5,273 bases of DNA from an uncultured Fretibacterium sp. GTDB lineage: Bacteria > Synergistota > Synergistia > Synergistales > Aminobacteriaceae. Location of the stretch: positions 1 through 5,273 of the forward strand of contig CALAUZ010000284.1 of the NCBI GenBank assembly GCA_937892105.1, read 5' to 3'. Shown piece after piece: positions 1 through 5,273 of this stretch (its first letter is position 1; every line of letters starts with the position of its first letter). Made by a program: the position numbers and the translations under genes. The notes beneath the pieces were generated by a model, which saw only the letters and a list, made by a program, of their open reading frames with translations, searched no databases and was not told where the DNA came from.

Positions 1-1
1 G

Positions 2-2998
2 AAAATCATGATGGACAACCTCAACACCGAAGTAGCCGGGCAGTATATATTCGGCGGGACAGACACAAGCACTCAGCCTTTTGTAGAGATGCCGGACGGA
101 AGCATACAGTATCAGGGCACAGATGAACGCATAAAGTACGCTGTAAGTGAGAGCCTGCTGGGAGATGTATCATTTGCGGGGAGTGATATAGTTCCGGAGA
201 ACGAGAACTCATACTTCATCTGTTCGCATTATGTTCCGCTTGACTGGGAATGGACTGGCAGAGAGGAGAAAGTGCAGATTACTGTTGGGAACAGGACGCT
301 TTCCGTGTTCATACCTGAAGACTGGCAGGACTCCGACTACAACAAGACCAATAAATACAGCGATGACGAAACAAAACTCATAAACTATTCAGACCGCAAC
401 GGCTACAGAGATCCCAATGAAGTTAAAGGAATAAGCCTCGAAGAACTAGCTTCCATAGTGAACAGTTCGCTGGAAGAACAAGGGGCTGATATGCTTGTTC
501 ATGCGTACATCGAGAAGGATTACGAGATCGGAAGGCAGCAGCTTATTCTCAAATCCAACACCGGCGAGAAGGTTGGCATAACCGGCTGGCCTGACACCGA
601 CTACATGCCTATGGAGGCTACAGTAACAACCCTCGACATGAGCGATCCTACAGAGTGGAGGCCTTCTGGAACTGAGACATCATCATTCACGTTAATGATA
701 GGCAATGACCCCAACAATAAAGCAACGATAAATATTACGGACACTGATACTGTTACGACTATTGCAGACAAGATTAACTCTGTGAACGGTATATTTGCCA
801 GAACATCGGCTGACGGAAAAAGCATAGTTATATCCGCAGAACGTATCGGAGACCTTCCCGAAGACAGGCTCAGGATTGATGAAGCAAAAGAAGCACTGCA
901 TTACCCATCATTGACGATAACGGCAGAAGGTAACGCGAAGAAGATATTTGACCTTCCCACAGACAGCACAGGCAATTACACCAGCGATACTTTGACGGCT
1001 AAGAGCGAAACCCGCAAAATCGACCAGAGCCATATGGACGTTTTCGATGTTCTTGGCATGGAGACGGCCATGAAGTCAAGAGAGTTTGGCATGAATGATG
1101 TGCTGACGGTGAAGAATGGAGAGCAGCTTCACTGGCGAATGATAAGCGGCGGAAGAACGGCTGACATCAAGCTCAACTCTGGAACATATACTCTTGAGGA
1201 CATAGCGTCAAGGCTCAAGAATGCTGGCGCAGGGTGGGTTGAGGTTACTCTCAGCGAGGACGTTAAGGACGACTCCGGCACTGGAACCCTCGACAATGAG
1301 GAGAAGACACAGAGGCTTGTCATGCGGGGTTACAATGGCGAACAAGTAATATTCCTCGACATGAACGGCAACAATTACGCCGACAAGCTAGGAATGTCAA
1401 CAGCCCTCCGTACTGACGCTTACACAGACACAGTTAATGGTACAGGCACTAAATGCGTAAATTTCCCTTCAGCTCCCTGCGTTGATGACAATGTTGGAAT
1501 ACAGATGAGGGTCCAGATGAATTGCGGAATGAGCTATGACGTTAATATCAAGAAAGCCGATGTAGTTGACAAGAACACAGGTTTCGTTGACAGGGCGTTG
1601 GTAATGCAGGAGATAGTAGACCAGGTGAACGACTTAGAGGGATATGATGTCATGGGTTTTGCCCAGCATGTTGACGAGAATGGAACGGATATACCCGGCT
1701 CATGTTCGATATACTTCCTTTCTGGCGAGGCATTTACGGTTGTGGATTTGCCATTCACTGACCCTGAGTGGGACGACTATTCGGGCGGTCTTGCGGCTCA
1801 GATGGGCATTCACGGCGGTGTAACGTCAAACCTGAAGCAGACGGAAGTACCCATGAAGGACAATGCAACGTTTGGAGCAGCCTACACTGACGCAGGAAAC
1901 ACATTCAGGCCGGGAACTATACGCTTCTCGAACCTTGCGCACAGCGTTGAAATAGACGTGAGCGAGGAGGATACTGTGAAAGACGTTATGGACAGGCTCA
2001 GAACTCAGGCAGGGGAATGGCTGTACGTCAACTATTACGATGAACACATGGGTCAGGACGCGACACGAAATACAGGGGATTATCCTTTGCTTTCCATTTC
2101 ATCGGTTGATGGTTCTGCTGTGAATATACTTGACGTTAAGGGACATATTGCAGAAGATGCATTGGGGCTGTCAACGAGTGTTCAAGGGAGGCTCAACGAA
2201 GATGGTACAAGAAACGGCATAGAGGCTTTCGAGTGGGACATAGAGAACCAGTCATTCCCTGCTGATACTCTGAGCATTACCGTAGCAGGATACACTCACA
2301 CCATAGACCTTACGGCATTAAGGGACGTTACGGCGGACAACAAGATAAAGGCTGAAGATGTCGTGAAGTTTGTCAATGCGAGAATGCAGGATTATGACGT
2401 TCAGGCTGAAGTCAACAAGGATAACGAGTTAATGCTGTGGTCGCCTAGAGGATACTCGGTCAGTATTGCATTCCAGAATAAAGACGGGACGGACAAGACA
2501 GCGGATTTTCTGGGAACAGGGACATCATCGAGAAGCTGCTACAGGGGCGGCTATAACCTTGAGGGTTCGGCAACTACGCGCGGAATTGACACGACTGACA
2601 TGTACAGTTCAGGGATACACGCACAGAACGCAACAATCAGGAGCGGTGCGAACACCATGAAGCAGAATGGCTTTGGTGTAATCAATGACGCAATAGCCGC
2701 GATTGAGGCAGGAAACAGGGACGACCTTGCGGACAAGATGCTCCCGAGAATAGATGACTTCATCAGCAATATTCTGTCAGTCATGGCGGAAGATGGAGCG
2801 TTGCAGGCGCGTTACAGCTACAACAACGAGCGTCTTGTTACGGAGAGTGCGATAATGGACGAGCAATACGATGACCTGGTGAAGATTGACCCTGCGGACG
2901 CAATCTCACAGCTTATGATTGCGGATTACATGTATCAGGCTAACCTTGCCATGATTGCGAGGATAATACAGCCCAGCCTTCTCGATTTTCTGAATTAA
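2..2998 (+). CDS. flgL: Flagellar hook-filament junction protein FlgL (HAP3), oversized, 5' partial
   Basis: FlgL is exported by the flagellar type III apparatus and forms the ring joining the hook (through FlgK) to the filament. The frame is open to the window edge. The ATGs at 8 and 11 are internal, because the sequence after them (MMDNLNTEVAG, then QYIFGGTDTSTQPF) matches the end of the N-terminal helical domain of FlgL, which normally lies about 120-150 residues into the protein. Residue numbers here count from the ATG at 8. Residues about 885-996 are the C-terminal helical domain, with an INDAIAAIEAG helix, repeated acidic and hydrophobic heptads, and a final YMYQANLAMIARI helix like the flagellin/FlgL C-terminus. 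Between them lie about 860 residues with six diverged units starting near 89, 227, 365, 497, 636 and 753. Each has beta strands (xIxVxG), a helix such as TVTTIADKINS or TVKDVMDRLR, and often a closing A..LGxST motif, like flagellin hook IN motifs. Typical FlgL is about 300 residues. The stop is TAA at 2996-2998 and a terminator follows directly. The FlgL assignment is firm; an unusual flagellin paralogue is the main alternative. Confidence 0.87.
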   Translation, partial: KIMMDNLNTEVAGQYIFGGTDTSTQPFVEMPDGSIQYQGTDERIKYAVSESLLGDVSFAGSDIVPENENSYFICSHYVPLDWEWTGREEKVQITVGNRTLSVFIPEDWQDSDYNKTNKYSDDETKLINYSDRNGYRDPNEVKGISLEELASIVNSSLEEQGADMLVHAYIEKDYEIGRQQLILKSNTGEKVGITGWPDTDYMPMEATVTTLDMSDPTEWRPSGTETSSFTLMIGNDPNNKATINITDTDTVTTIADKINSVNGIFARTSADGKSIVISAERIGDLPEDRLRIDEAKEALHYPSLTITAEGNAKKIFDLPTDSTGNYTSDTLTAKSETRKIDQSHMDVFDVLGMETAMKSREFGMNDVLTVKNGEQLHWRMISGGRTADIKLNSGTYTLEDIASRLKNAGAGWVEVTLSEDVKDDSGTGTLDNEEKTQRLVMRGYNGEQVIFLDMNGNNYADKLGMSTALRTDAYTDTVNGTGTKCVNFPSAPCVDDNVGIQMRVQMNCGMSYDVNIKKADVVDKNTGFVDRALVMQEIVDQVNDLEGYDVMGFAQHVDENGTDIPGSCSIYFLSGEAFTVVDLPFTDPEWDDYSGGLAAQMGIHGGVTSNLKQTEVPMKDNATFGAAYTDAGNTFRPGTIRFSNLAHSVEIDVSEEDTVKDVMDRLRTQAGEWLYVNYYDEHMGQDATRNTGDYPLLSISSVDGSAVNILDVKGHIAEDALGLSTSVQGRLNEDGTRNGIEAFEWDIENQSFPADTLSITVAGYTHTIDLTALRDVTADNKIKAEDVVKFVNARMQDYDVQAEVNKDNELMLWSPRGYSVSIAFQNKDGTDKTADFLGTGTSSRSCYRGGYNLEGSATTRGIDTTDMYSSGIHAQNATIRSGANTMKQNGFGVINDAIAAIEAGNRDDLADKMLPRIDDFISNILSVMAEDGALQARYSYNNERLVTESAIMDEQYDDLVKIDPADAISQLMIADYMYQANLAMIARIIQPSLLDFLN

Positions 2999-3019
2999 GG
3001 GATAAAGTGAAGAATTTTG

Positions 3020-3061
3020 GCGGTCAGCGGGGATAAATATTTCTCACTGGCCGCTGTTTTT
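3020..3061 (+). terminator. Rho-independent terminator of flgL
   Basis: The arm GCGGTCAG (3020-3027) pairs with CTGGCCGC (3047-3054), giving 8 pairs of which one is a T-G wobble. Weak extra pairing inside (GGGGA with TTCTC) leaves an AT-rich loop. A run of five T follows at 3057-3061. The hairpin starts 21 bases after the flgL stop codon, which suits it as the end of the flgL transcript, so flgL is probably the last gene of its operon. Confidence 0.72.
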
Positions 3062-3118
3062 GTGCCTGGCATTTCCTTATTAATGCGAGGGGTATTTTCT
3101 TCATTGCCGGGCAAAAAC
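3056..3118. repeat. Inverted repeat overlapping the flgL terminator tail
   Basis: GTTTTT (3056-3061) plus GCCTGGCA (3064-3071) can pair with TGCCGGGC (3105-3112) plus AAAAAC (3113-3118). This gives about 14 pairs with a two-base bulge and a 33-base loop. One pair is T-G in plus-strand RNA but C-A in minus-strand RNA, so the plus-strand transcript folds better. It has no T-tract of its own on the plus strand. The left arm uses the T-run of the preceding terminator. It may simply protect the 3' end of read-through RNA; no function is established. Confidence 0.45.
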
Positions 3119-3162
3119 TCCTCCTCCTTTCAAAATCTGCCGCAGCTGTTTGTCGAGATTGC

Positions 3163-3207
3163 ATAATAAAAATCAGGGCGGCTCATTACATAAAAGCCTG
3201 ACCCTGA
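3163..3207 (-). terminator. Rho-independent terminator on the minus strand (flagellin or small RNA)
   Basis: Read on the minus strand, TCAGGG (5' arm, from 3207) pairs with CCCTGA (3' arm, ending at 3173), giving a 6-pair outer stem. A small asymmetric bulge separates this from an inner AGGC-side stem (plus-strand GGCT 3180-3183 with AGCC 3195-3198) and an AT-rich loop. The 3' arm is followed by TTTTTATTAT, the plus-strand A-run ending at 3172. The orientation fits the flagellin gene, whose stop lies about 150 bases upstream. That is a long distance, which leaves room for a separate short transcript ending here. Confidence 0.75.
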
Positions 3208-3285
3208 CAGTTATATGCGTATAGATTTAGGGTTTGGGCTTCTTAGTTCCCCGTCAGCATGATGGCCGAACAGGAGAGCCTGTGT
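3163..3285 (-). ncRNA. Candidate small RNA or flagellin 3' UTR segment
   Basis: If the promoter-like sequence at 3291-3319 is real, transcription would start near 3285 and stop at the minus-strand terminator, giving an RNA of about 120 nt. Its 5' end would be a small hairpin, ACAGG-CTCT-CCTGT (3283 to 3270). The terminator hairpin forms the 3' end. The segment has no useful reading frame: an internal ATG near 3251 stops after five codons. I compared it with what I remember of 6S RNA, SRP RNA, tmRNA and common riboswitch cores and found no match. The simpler alternative is that this is the 3' UTR of the flagellin mRNA. Confidence 0.3.
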
Positions 3286-3290
3286 GTGAA

Positions 3291-3319
3291 AATATAACAC
3301 ATATTTAATTATGACGCAA
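3291..3319 (-). promoter_or_regulatory. Sigma-70-like promoter candidate downstream of the flagellin stop
   Basis: On the minus strand, TTGCGT (3319-3314) is followed after exactly 17 bases by TATATT (3296-3291). A TGT just before the latter gives an extended -10 (TGn). The -35 box matches consensus at only its first three bases. The surrounding sequence is AT-rich, so a chance match is quite possible. It lies between the flagellin stop codon and its presumed terminator, so it can only drive a short transcript. Confidence 0.33.
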
Positions 3320-3359
3320 AACTTTTACATCACAACACGCCAAAATATTTCATCATTAA

Positions 3360-5273
3360 TCAATCTCTTATCAATGATAGAACATTCTCTGGCTGCTGGT
3401 TGGCCTGAGCAAAAACACTAGTTTGTGCATTGAGCATAATCTGAAGTTTCGTAAAGTCTGCCGCCGCTTTAGCTTCATCAGCATCACGTATTCTGCTTTC
3501 TGAGCTTGTTACATTCTCATGCATTACCGATATTACTGACGCGCTGTGTTCAAGCCTGTTAATCAGCACACCGACTTTTGCGTTCTGTGATGAAACTTTA
3601 TCGAGTGCCGTATCAATAACGCCTATAGCTTCTGCAGCTCTCTCTCGGCTCACAACATCAACTTTCTTCAGGTTCAGGCTATCCGATGAAATTTCTCCAA
3701 TACCGAAGTCTATCACTTCCCCTTCATTAATGCCTGCCTGAAGACGGACTGAATTGTCCTTCAAGTGTACAGTTGTTGTTGCGTTTTGAGCTGAGAACAT
3801 AAATTTTTTGGCGGTGTCGTTCCAGTCGGCATGTATTCCCGCCATCGCGTCAAATACAATATCCGCGTCAGGACTGATTGCTCCTATTAAGTGATTGCCC
3901 GTAGTCTTGATGTTTAGCGCAACATTACTGTTATTATGCGAATTGGTTATGTTTATCTCAAACTCGCTTTCTGTCGCTTCCTGAATTGTATTCACTCCAA
4001 GACTGTTCAGCAGTTCTTCTGCCCCTGAGAACCTGAGTCTGCCTTCACTTCCTGCTATTGCCGAACGTATCACTATGCTTCCTGCAACCGACTCTGAAGT
4101 GTTTTCGGCCGCGTTATCCTCCGTAACGAGAGAGGCAAAATGATTACCGCTGCCGTCCGTAAGATATTTTGACTGGCCAAGTTCTTCAGATATTGCGCTG
4201 TTGAGTTTCTGGACAACATCATTCAGTGTGTCATTGCCGTAGAACATAATGCTTGCAGTCTGGCCGTCTCCCTGAATAATGGTGAGTTTCTGGGGAACAT
4301 CAAGAAGGAATTTTCCGCCCTCATCGTAGAAATTGGCAAGCTCACTAAGCATGAAATTACCTGTTGCCATACTTCCTGCGGCAACAGATTCTTCAATGTA
4401 GCCGGAGTCGATGAGGACCTCGTTGCTTATTGTCGTGAAAGCAACATTGTCGCCAGTGTCGGCACTGCTTAACCCGATAGAGGCAGCTCTGATGAAGCCG
4501 TTTTCGTACAGCCCCTCCTGTATGGAGATGTTTGTTATGCCGGTTGCCTCACCATTTGCATCAGTAGATTGTGTTGGTGCGTTGTTTCCTCCTCCGATTG
4601 CGGCCGCATTGCCAGTAGTGCCTGCTGTTGCCGTGATATATCCGCCGGTGATACTGATGGTGTTCCCAGGTGCTTGAAGTCCGCCGCCGATACCTGCTCC
4701 GTTTGAGCCTCCTTCAGCAGTGATTTCACCGCCGCTTATGGTGATAGTTCCTTTACCGGTTCTTGCAGAATCACCAACGCTGACAGTGCCATCTCTTTCG
4801 CTTCCACTTCCACTGCCGATGCCCGAACCGCTAGGACCTCCTTTAGCCTTGATAGTACCTCCTGTTATAGTGATACTTCCCGCATTTGCGTACCTTCCGC
4901 TTCCGATACCTGCTGCTTCGTTGCCGCCTGAAGCCTCAATGTAGCCTCCGCTTATGGTTATATTTTCACCCGCTGCTTTAGATCCGCTTCCAATGCCTGC
5001 ACCAGCCTGTCCTGTGTTGAGGGCTTTGATCGTGCCTCCACTGATGTTGATTTCACCGCCCATTCCGGCTGAGCCGCCGCCTATTCCTGCTCCCCAGCTG
5101 GGGCTTGTTGCTGTAATATCTCCGCCAGTTATATTGATAGTACCGTTCACCATATACCTTCCGCTTCCGATACCTGCCCCATAATTTCCGCCGGTAGCTT
5201 CGACAGTCCCGCCGTTGATGTTGATAGTTCCACCATTGTAAGTGATAGTTCCATCAGCAGATCCTGGCTCTCT
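3360..5273 (-). CDS. fliC: Large flagellin with beta-helix repeats in the variable region, 5' partial
   Basis: Flagellin is the filament subunit, exported through the flagellar channel and polymerised outside the cell. The frame is open to the window edge, giving 637 visible residues (numbered from the edge). The ATG at 5153 is internal: the repeat pattern continues upstream of it (GTININGGTVEA, then GAGIGSGRYM), and no ribosome site precedes it. Residues about 5-235 are tandem GAGIGxG / IxIxGGxIxA repeats, a likely right-handed beta-helix. They end in a degenerate unit near 247-260. Residues about 328-360 (LTIIQGDGQTASIMF, then TLNDVVQKLNSAI) resemble the flagellin IN motif. LQAGINEGEVIDFGI near 512 is the conserved lead-in to the C-terminal domain. 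Residues about 540-637 are canonical flagellin D1/D0: INRLEHSASV, ESRIRDADEAK, and an ending of PENVLSLIRD. The conserved N-terminal domain must lie outside the window, implying a full protein well above 750 residues. The stop is TGA at 3360-3362. Flagellin identity is strong; which paralogue it is cannot be told. Confidence 0.88.
   Translation of the reverse strand, partial: REPGSADGTITYNGGTININGGTVEATGGNYGAGIGSGRYMVNGTINITGGDITATSPSWGAGIGGGSAGMGGEINISGGTIKALNTGQAGAGIGSGSKAAGENITISGGYIEASGGNEAAGIGSGRYANAGSITITGGTIKAKGGPSGSGIGSGSGSERDGTVSVGDSARTGKGTITISGGEITAEGGSNGAGIGGGLQAPGNTISITGGYITATAGTTGNAAAIGGGNNAPTQSTDANGEATGITNISIQEGLYENGFIRAASIGLSSADTGDNVAFTTISNEVLIDSGYIEESVAAGSMATGNFMLSELANFYDEGGKFLLDVPQKLTIIQGDGQTASIMFYGNDTLNDVVQKLNSAISEELGQSKYLTDGSGNHFASLVTEDNAAENTSESVAGSIVIRSAIAGSEGRLRFSGAEELLNSLGVNTIQEATESEFEINITNSHNNSNVALNIKTTGNHLIGAISPDADIVFDAMAGIHADWNDTAKKFMFSAQNATTTVHLKDNSVRLQAGINEGEVIDFGIGEISSDSLNLKKVDVVSRERAAEAIGVIDTALDKVSSQNAKVGVLINRLEHSASVISVMHENVTSSESRIRDADEAKAAADFTKLQIMLNAQTSVFAQANQQPENVLSLIRD
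4570..5273 (-). repeat. Tandem repeats of about 87-90 bp encoding the flagellin beta-helix
   Basis: At least seven units encode the pattern GTIxIxGGxIxAxxG...GAGIGxG. Successive cores are GTININGGTVEA, GTINITGGDITA, GEINISGGTIKA, NITISGGYIEA, SITITGGTIKA, GTITISGGEITA and TISITGGYITA. Most units are 29-30 residues. The fifth carries an extra insert (GTVSVGDSARTGK) and the last visible one has a longer Thr/Asn-rich tail. The units are diverged at DNA level but keep near-identical blocks: the same 23 bases occur at 4891-4913 and 5155-5177, encoding the AGIGSGRY step. The array continues beyond 5273, so its total copy number is unknown. Confidence 0.85.

Follow-up and report, generated by a model that had tools for sequence, protein, structure and literature searches.

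What is an array of GAGIGxG / IxIxGGxIxA repeats doing in a flagellin? The question is raised by contig CALAUZ010000284.1 of an uncultured Fretibacterium sp. (assembly GCA_937892105.1), whose positions 1 to 5,273 were analyzed as a whole and are referred to below as the window. A flagellin gene, open at its 5′ end, lies on the minus strand at 3360..5273, with its stop codon at the 3360 end, and contributes 637 amino acids (aa). An earlier note, made from the sequence alone, had read the C-terminal half of this protein as flagellin and the repeats as a parallel beta-helix with a possible binding role, and had named a stop, a frameshift or a missing flagellin N-terminal domain upstream, or a structure prediction without a beta-helix, as outcomes that would speak against this; the frame is open throughout 5273..3360, with no stop up to the window edge. 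The reading frame, the repeats, the domain architecture in relatives, the predicted fold and the nearest solved fold were all computed.

The window gene and its repeat array

The window protein starts inside the frame at edge 5273, and the flagellin N-terminus falls beyond the window. The C-terminal half is indeed flagellin. Flagellin_C (PF00700) is found with 72.4 bits (E 3.9e-20, Pfam cut-off 23) in the C-terminal helical region D1/D0 (residues 550-635; 3369..3626, minus strand), and the preceding D2-like core (residues 318-545; 3639..4322, minus strand) is common to the Synergistaceae flagellin family. The top-scoring NCBIfam models are flagellins as well, with up to 87.2 bits, all under their own cut-offs; it should be noted that the missing N-terminus lowers all of these scores, and that the protein is also atypical. 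The FlgL model TIGR02550 gives 32.8 bits on this N-terminally cut protein, against a cut-off of 127.2, and an identity as a hook-associated protein was rejected on the comparison of 87.2 with 32.8 bits. Residues 220-543 of P0176, a flagellin of the same family that has no insert and ends at residue 543, align with window residues 323-636.

The C-terminal part of the beta-helix insert is at 4536..5252 (minus strand; residues 8-246) and consists of seven coils of about 29 aa each. Seven AGIGxG-like units begin at residues 32, 61, 91, 120, 149, 192 and 223, with spacings of 29, 30, 29, 29, 43 and 31. Self-identity of residues 1-246 is highest at lag 29 (30%; lags 5-69 scanned) and does not exceed 10% in the remaining protein. 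A stricter form of the motif occurs 5 times, compared with a maximum of 3 in any of 20,000 shuffles, and Beta_helix_3 (PF18889) matches six stretches with 92.6 bits (E 1.2e-26, cut-off 27). The seven units, the lag-29 peak and the PF18889 match confirm the earlier count of at least seven repeats, and residues 1-246 agree with the span 4535-5273 that had been given for them. Chance or low complexity was rejected as their origin by the period-29 signal, the shuffle test and the Pfam score, and recent tandem expansion by the array DNA, whose copies are just 64-86% identical to reference copies. A linker (residues 247-317; 4323..4535, minus strand) connects the helix to the flagellin core and is modeled with low confidence, with a predicted local distance difference test score (pLDDT) below 50 at 253-263 and 272-304.

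Relatives with the whole architecture

Relatives were taken from three listings, the best 120 of 6,373, of 1,213 and of 695 matches. Among these, Flagellin_N, Beta_helix_3 and Flagellin_C are present in one chain (precomputed Pfam) in at least 15 distinct proteins, P0005, P0006, P0008, P0017, P0122, P0123, P0125, P0126, P0130, P0134, P0166, P0167, P0199, P0218 and P0275. Thus the further class of beta-helix flagellin that the earlier note had suspected exists in the sequence databases, and the check it had proposed, a search for the repeats in flagellins with both conserved termini, has a positive outcome. A source name is given for five of the 15 (P0005, P0122, P0130, P0167 and P0218), and all five are named Synergistaceae bacterium; the core of the window protein suggests that the window belongs to this family too. 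Since 15 distinct listed proteins share the architecture, a chimeric contig is unlikely. Flagellin_N was found in 31 of the 33 members of an alignment of relatives, A1.

The nearest relative among the listed matches is P0002 (74% identity), which likewise starts inside the repeats. The two proteins have 70 consecutive identical residues (window residues 201-270; 4464-4673, minus strand) that span the helix/linker junction, and whole blocks of them are 73-84% identical; recombination or strong constraint is possible. P0004 (45% identity), whose longest contig measures 121 kb, nevertheless has no Flagellin_C, only Flagellin_N and eight Beta_helix_3 stretches. The partial protein P0262, with Flagellin_N and repeats, is named Defluviitaleaceae, a different lineage. 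The more distant flagellins P0261, P0262 and P0275 bear helix repeats too, behind a similar lead-in, those of P0261 being under the PF18889 cut-off. The locus-tag prefix IJR43 is common to two different helix flagellins, P0136 and P0145, and thus one metagenome-assembled genome (MAG) seems to encode at least two.

No relative was found in the viral contigs searched. A scan of genome contigs gave only L001 and L002, both as C-terminal matches, and the flagellin of L001 is without the helix motif. L001 is a Lachnospiraceae locus, and P0017 was used as a query against 391 genomes of the class of its genome, G001, with a match in 129. Each listed match lies within the flagellin N part or within the lead-in/repeats and none extends across both; at most two candidates per genome were scored, as single stretches, and absence is not thereby established. 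Eight loci from this search have helix motifs (2), the flagellin motif (5) or neither (1), and none of the eight has both in one frame. PF18889 had no match in G001, and no control genome gave a signal either.

Predicted fold of the insert

The repeats form a beta-helix in both structure predictions, as the earlier note had anticipated. A VIA-align comparison of the predicted structure places Cthe_2159 of Clostridium thermocellum (PDB 4peu/4phb, PF14262) as the closest solved fold of the insert, at a level that counts as the same fold. The architecture is supported by computation, as is a predicted right-handed parallel beta-helix of the Cthe_2159 / pectate-lyase-like type. A PF14262 match in P0057 at 333-597 (31.5 bits, cut-off 25.8) covers the GAGIG / IxIxGGxIxA motifs; for P0049, PF14262 appears in the precomputed listing but not in a rescan at E ≤ 0.1.

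The insertion slot and its history

The position of the insert was compared in 124 proteins, 119 from one listing plus P0004, P0005, P0006, P0008 and P0009. Both flanks had to be matched separately to P0176, a rule that 110 of the 124 passed (the 14 dropped include P0176 itself). The extra sequence in all 110 falls between P0176 residues ~196 and 220. Looser clustering of the inserts merged 109 of the 110 into one group; stricter clustering (last 40 residues trimmed, single linkage) gave groups of 75, 30, 3, 1 and 1. The group of 75 has inserts of 238-598 aa without the helix motif and includes P0154 and P0177, with von Willebrand factor A (vWA) domains at the same slot, and the group of 30 has the helix motif. 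The single inserts are those of P0203, nidogen-like, and P0004, a helix. Because a helix-bearing query was used to draw the sample, the 31 helix inserts in 110 are not a natural frequency. On this sequence evidence the insert occupies a fixed slot, which in relatives is filled by other segments, vWA and nidogen-like domains among them; P0176 could itself have lost an insert.

The helix carriers do not form one clade. The helix label needs 5 changes on a flagellin-core tree of 116 rows, of which starred branches force 4, and 4 changes on a C-core tree of 56 rows, of which starred branches force 2. A single clade was rejected on the C core by the approximately unbiased (AU) test at p 5.6e-5, a grouping tested after the 116-row tree was known. 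The AU test used 55 of the 116 tree rows plus P0003, which was unlabeled; 32 helix rows were set against 23 others, 20 of the latter hand-picked, and P0004, P0176 and the distant P0017, P0261 and P0275 were left out. In the 116-row tree the vWA flagellin P0177 nests within a starred set of 16 helix rows, and the grouping of the window protein with P0176, a flagged long-branch join, was given no weight. Because the carriers are not one clade, the content of the slot is taken to have changed repeatedly, with recurrent gains, losses or swaps apparent from the trees.

Conservation of the insert

In the 33-row alignment, 76 of the 308 columns of the insert reach 80% or more and were counted as conserved. 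Of these 76, 71 hold Gly, Ile, Ala, Leu, Val or Phe, and the exceptions are W224, Y240, N303, S329 and T374; the D2-like core has 44 polar or aromatic columns among its 79 conserved ones. No Asp, Glu, Lys, Arg or His column reaches 80% in the insert among the 33 rows. With nearly all conserved columns being scaffold residues, it is the scaffold that is maintained, and neither a catalytic nor a calcium site is apparent.

Pairwise conservation was compared in 11 helix pairs, which are hand-picked and not independent. In 6 of the 11 the helix insert equals or exceeds the C core in conservation; inserts of the other type fall below the C core in 8 of 8 pairs. A uniformly fast-changing, antigen-like insert is not supported by these 6 pairs; the remaining 5, and 10 of 11 against the N core, show the opposite. 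Charge density is about equal in helix inserts and other inserts (-5.7 vs -4.9 per 100 residues).

Comparison with known systems

A flagellin with a folded insert belongs to a known kind. PMC5595980 reports 61 domains in flagellin variable regions, and in its account the ten most frequent include vWFA (21) and Sialidase (10), with no beta-helix among those ten. Flagellinolysin, from the same source, resembles the window protein as described there in having a folded domain in the variable region between conserved ends and in being scattered over lineages, but its insert is a HExxH metallopeptidase and not a beta-helix. The flagellinolysin model NF033876 reaches 43.5 bits on the window protein (cut-off 205), over residues 429-566, which are the flagellin part. 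The giant flagellins of PMC6248924 also have a very large surface insert, with Synergistetes among the named carriers; however, as that source presents them, their origin is internal domain duplication together with a further insert, without reported similarity to enzyme domains. The Geovibrio thiophilus flagellin (PDB 9au6), the best PDB match of the window protein and P0006 by sequence and by Foldseek, is similar in the core, to which the confident match is confined, whereas the middle aligns poorly in sequence.

Among beta-helix proteins, Cthe_2159 differs in being a stand-alone protein, a chain of 313 residues, and not a flagellin. The PF18889 proteins have the GAGIG / IxIxGGxIxA repeats in common with the insert, but 111 of 120 listed (best 120 of 6,373) are without a flagellin domain, and examples bear fimbrillin, S-layer-homology or LysM domains. 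No description of a beta-helix flagellin was found among the listed titles and abstract starts (in one search, 10 of 1,779) of the open-licence literature on inserted flagellin domains, where a prior mention is possible; the insert may be of a type not described before.

Possible functions of the insert

The most likely reading, with chances that we judge to be about even, is a display flagellin that presents glycan-binding solenoids on the surface of the filament. The beta-helix would sit in the fixed slot, with the N-terminal D1 segment on one side and the D2-like core on the other. Given the intact core in relatives, the D0/D1 helices should polymerize as in any flagellin, and flagellin architecture would place the helix on the outside of the filament. 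Each copy may then present a Cthe_2159-like, sugar-binding solenoid face, and a filament or stretch of filament could bind polysaccharide with high avidity, perhaps plant cell-wall fiber or mucin in the gut. Cthe_2159 proteins are described in PMC6712302 as beta-helices that bind cellulose and polygalacturonic acid, and the binding guess of the earlier note is better founded because its closest solved fold is thus that of a carbohydrate binder. Predicted solenoid clusters of fibrillar adhesins are a subject of PMC9210967.

Several points weigh against a display flagellin of this kind. The window model has moderate confidence (71.6), and the predicted template modeling score (pTM) is below 0.5 in both models, so domain placement is uncertain. 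Cthe_2159 surfaced only in the second look with VIA-align and is absent from the Foldseek best 50 of 168 and best 50 of 115; its link in sequence is weak (E 0.012 with the insert profile, E 0.041 with the window protein). PF14262 was not found in the window protein at E ≤ 0.1 or in 10 proteins scanned at E ≤ 1, nor is it among the best 25 of 39 families for the 33 A1 members, the remaining 14 ranking after a single-member family at E 0.17. Only five conserved insert columns are polar or aromatic and none is charged, which leaves no visible conserved site for a ligand or for calcium. All 31 helix inserts carry a net negative charge (-12 to -34), which is unfavorable for acidic sugars unless calcium bridges. 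Finally, conservation of the insert is lower than that of the C core in 5 of 11 pairs, in two of them by more than 25 points, and lower than that of the N core in 10 of 11.

The main rival, which we consider a real possibility but short of probable, is a passive outer domain, in which the helix has no specific ligand. As a stiff spacer it would make the filament thicker or more rigid, or it would keep immune receptors, proteases or phages away from the conserved core. Such a domain fits the conserved columns of the insert, 71 of 76 of which hold scaffold residues (Gly, Ile, Ala and Leu, for example), as it does the filling of the same slot in relatives by unrelated segments, and a mechanical role is discussed in PMC6248924 for giant flagellins, with Synergistetes among their carriers. 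The Cthe_2159-like fold is what speaks for a ligand instead. The helix could also have activity as a polysaccharide lyase, which would make the protein a counterpart of flagellinolysin that cleaves sugars, and the pectate-lyase-like type of fold might be cited for this; however, a common helix fold is no proof of activity, and the lack of a charged insert column at 80% in 33 rows, which shows no ligand site, argues against an enzyme and makes this very improbable.

It is also unlikely, though less so than a lyase, that the filament is not coated with the helix protein because the latter is a minor subunit, a junction protein or the product of a truncated gene. The N-terminus beyond the window and P0004, with Flagellin_N and the repeats but without Flagellin_C, speak for such a reading, and the two helix proteins under MAG prefix IJR43 suggest that several flagellins may share a filament. 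Against it, flagellin models score above FlgL, and the alignment with P0176 runs through to the P0176 end.

Flagella are usually regarded as propellers whose decoration varies, and here a solenoid of predicted sugar-binding type is part of the subunit, at a slot that holds other domains in relatives. If the helix of a display flagellin binds, one gene would be enough to make a motility organelle an adhesive fiber of micrometer length, and the slot would offer protein display on filaments a site where insertions are naturally tolerated. A poorly cultured gut family thereby gains a specific ligand hypothesis, testable with one purified domain. A broader proposal, made tentatively and with slightly less than even expectation, is that a standing cargo slot exists at the D1/D2 junction of Synergistaceae flagellins, where folded domains (Cthe_2159-like glycan-binding helices, vWA, nidogen-like and others) have been swapped over evolution, making the filament a polyvalent display organelle for polysaccharide attachment in the gut.

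Flagellar neighborhood

A second gene, convergent with the flagellin gene and 361 bases from it, lies on the plus strand at 2..2998, is open at its 5′ end, and encodes the C-terminal 998 aa of a large hook-filament junction protein of the FlgL type. A terminator scan of 2900-3450 found none. TIGR02550 (flagell_flgL) matches this N-terminally cut protein with E 5.3e-25 and 88.6 bits, against a cut-off of 127.2, and Flagellin_C with 27.2 bits, so the context of the flagellin gene is flagellar. The neighbor has at least 998 aa, compared with 387 positions in the TIGR02550 model, and thus the hook-junction protein beside the flagellin gene seems to be enlarged too.
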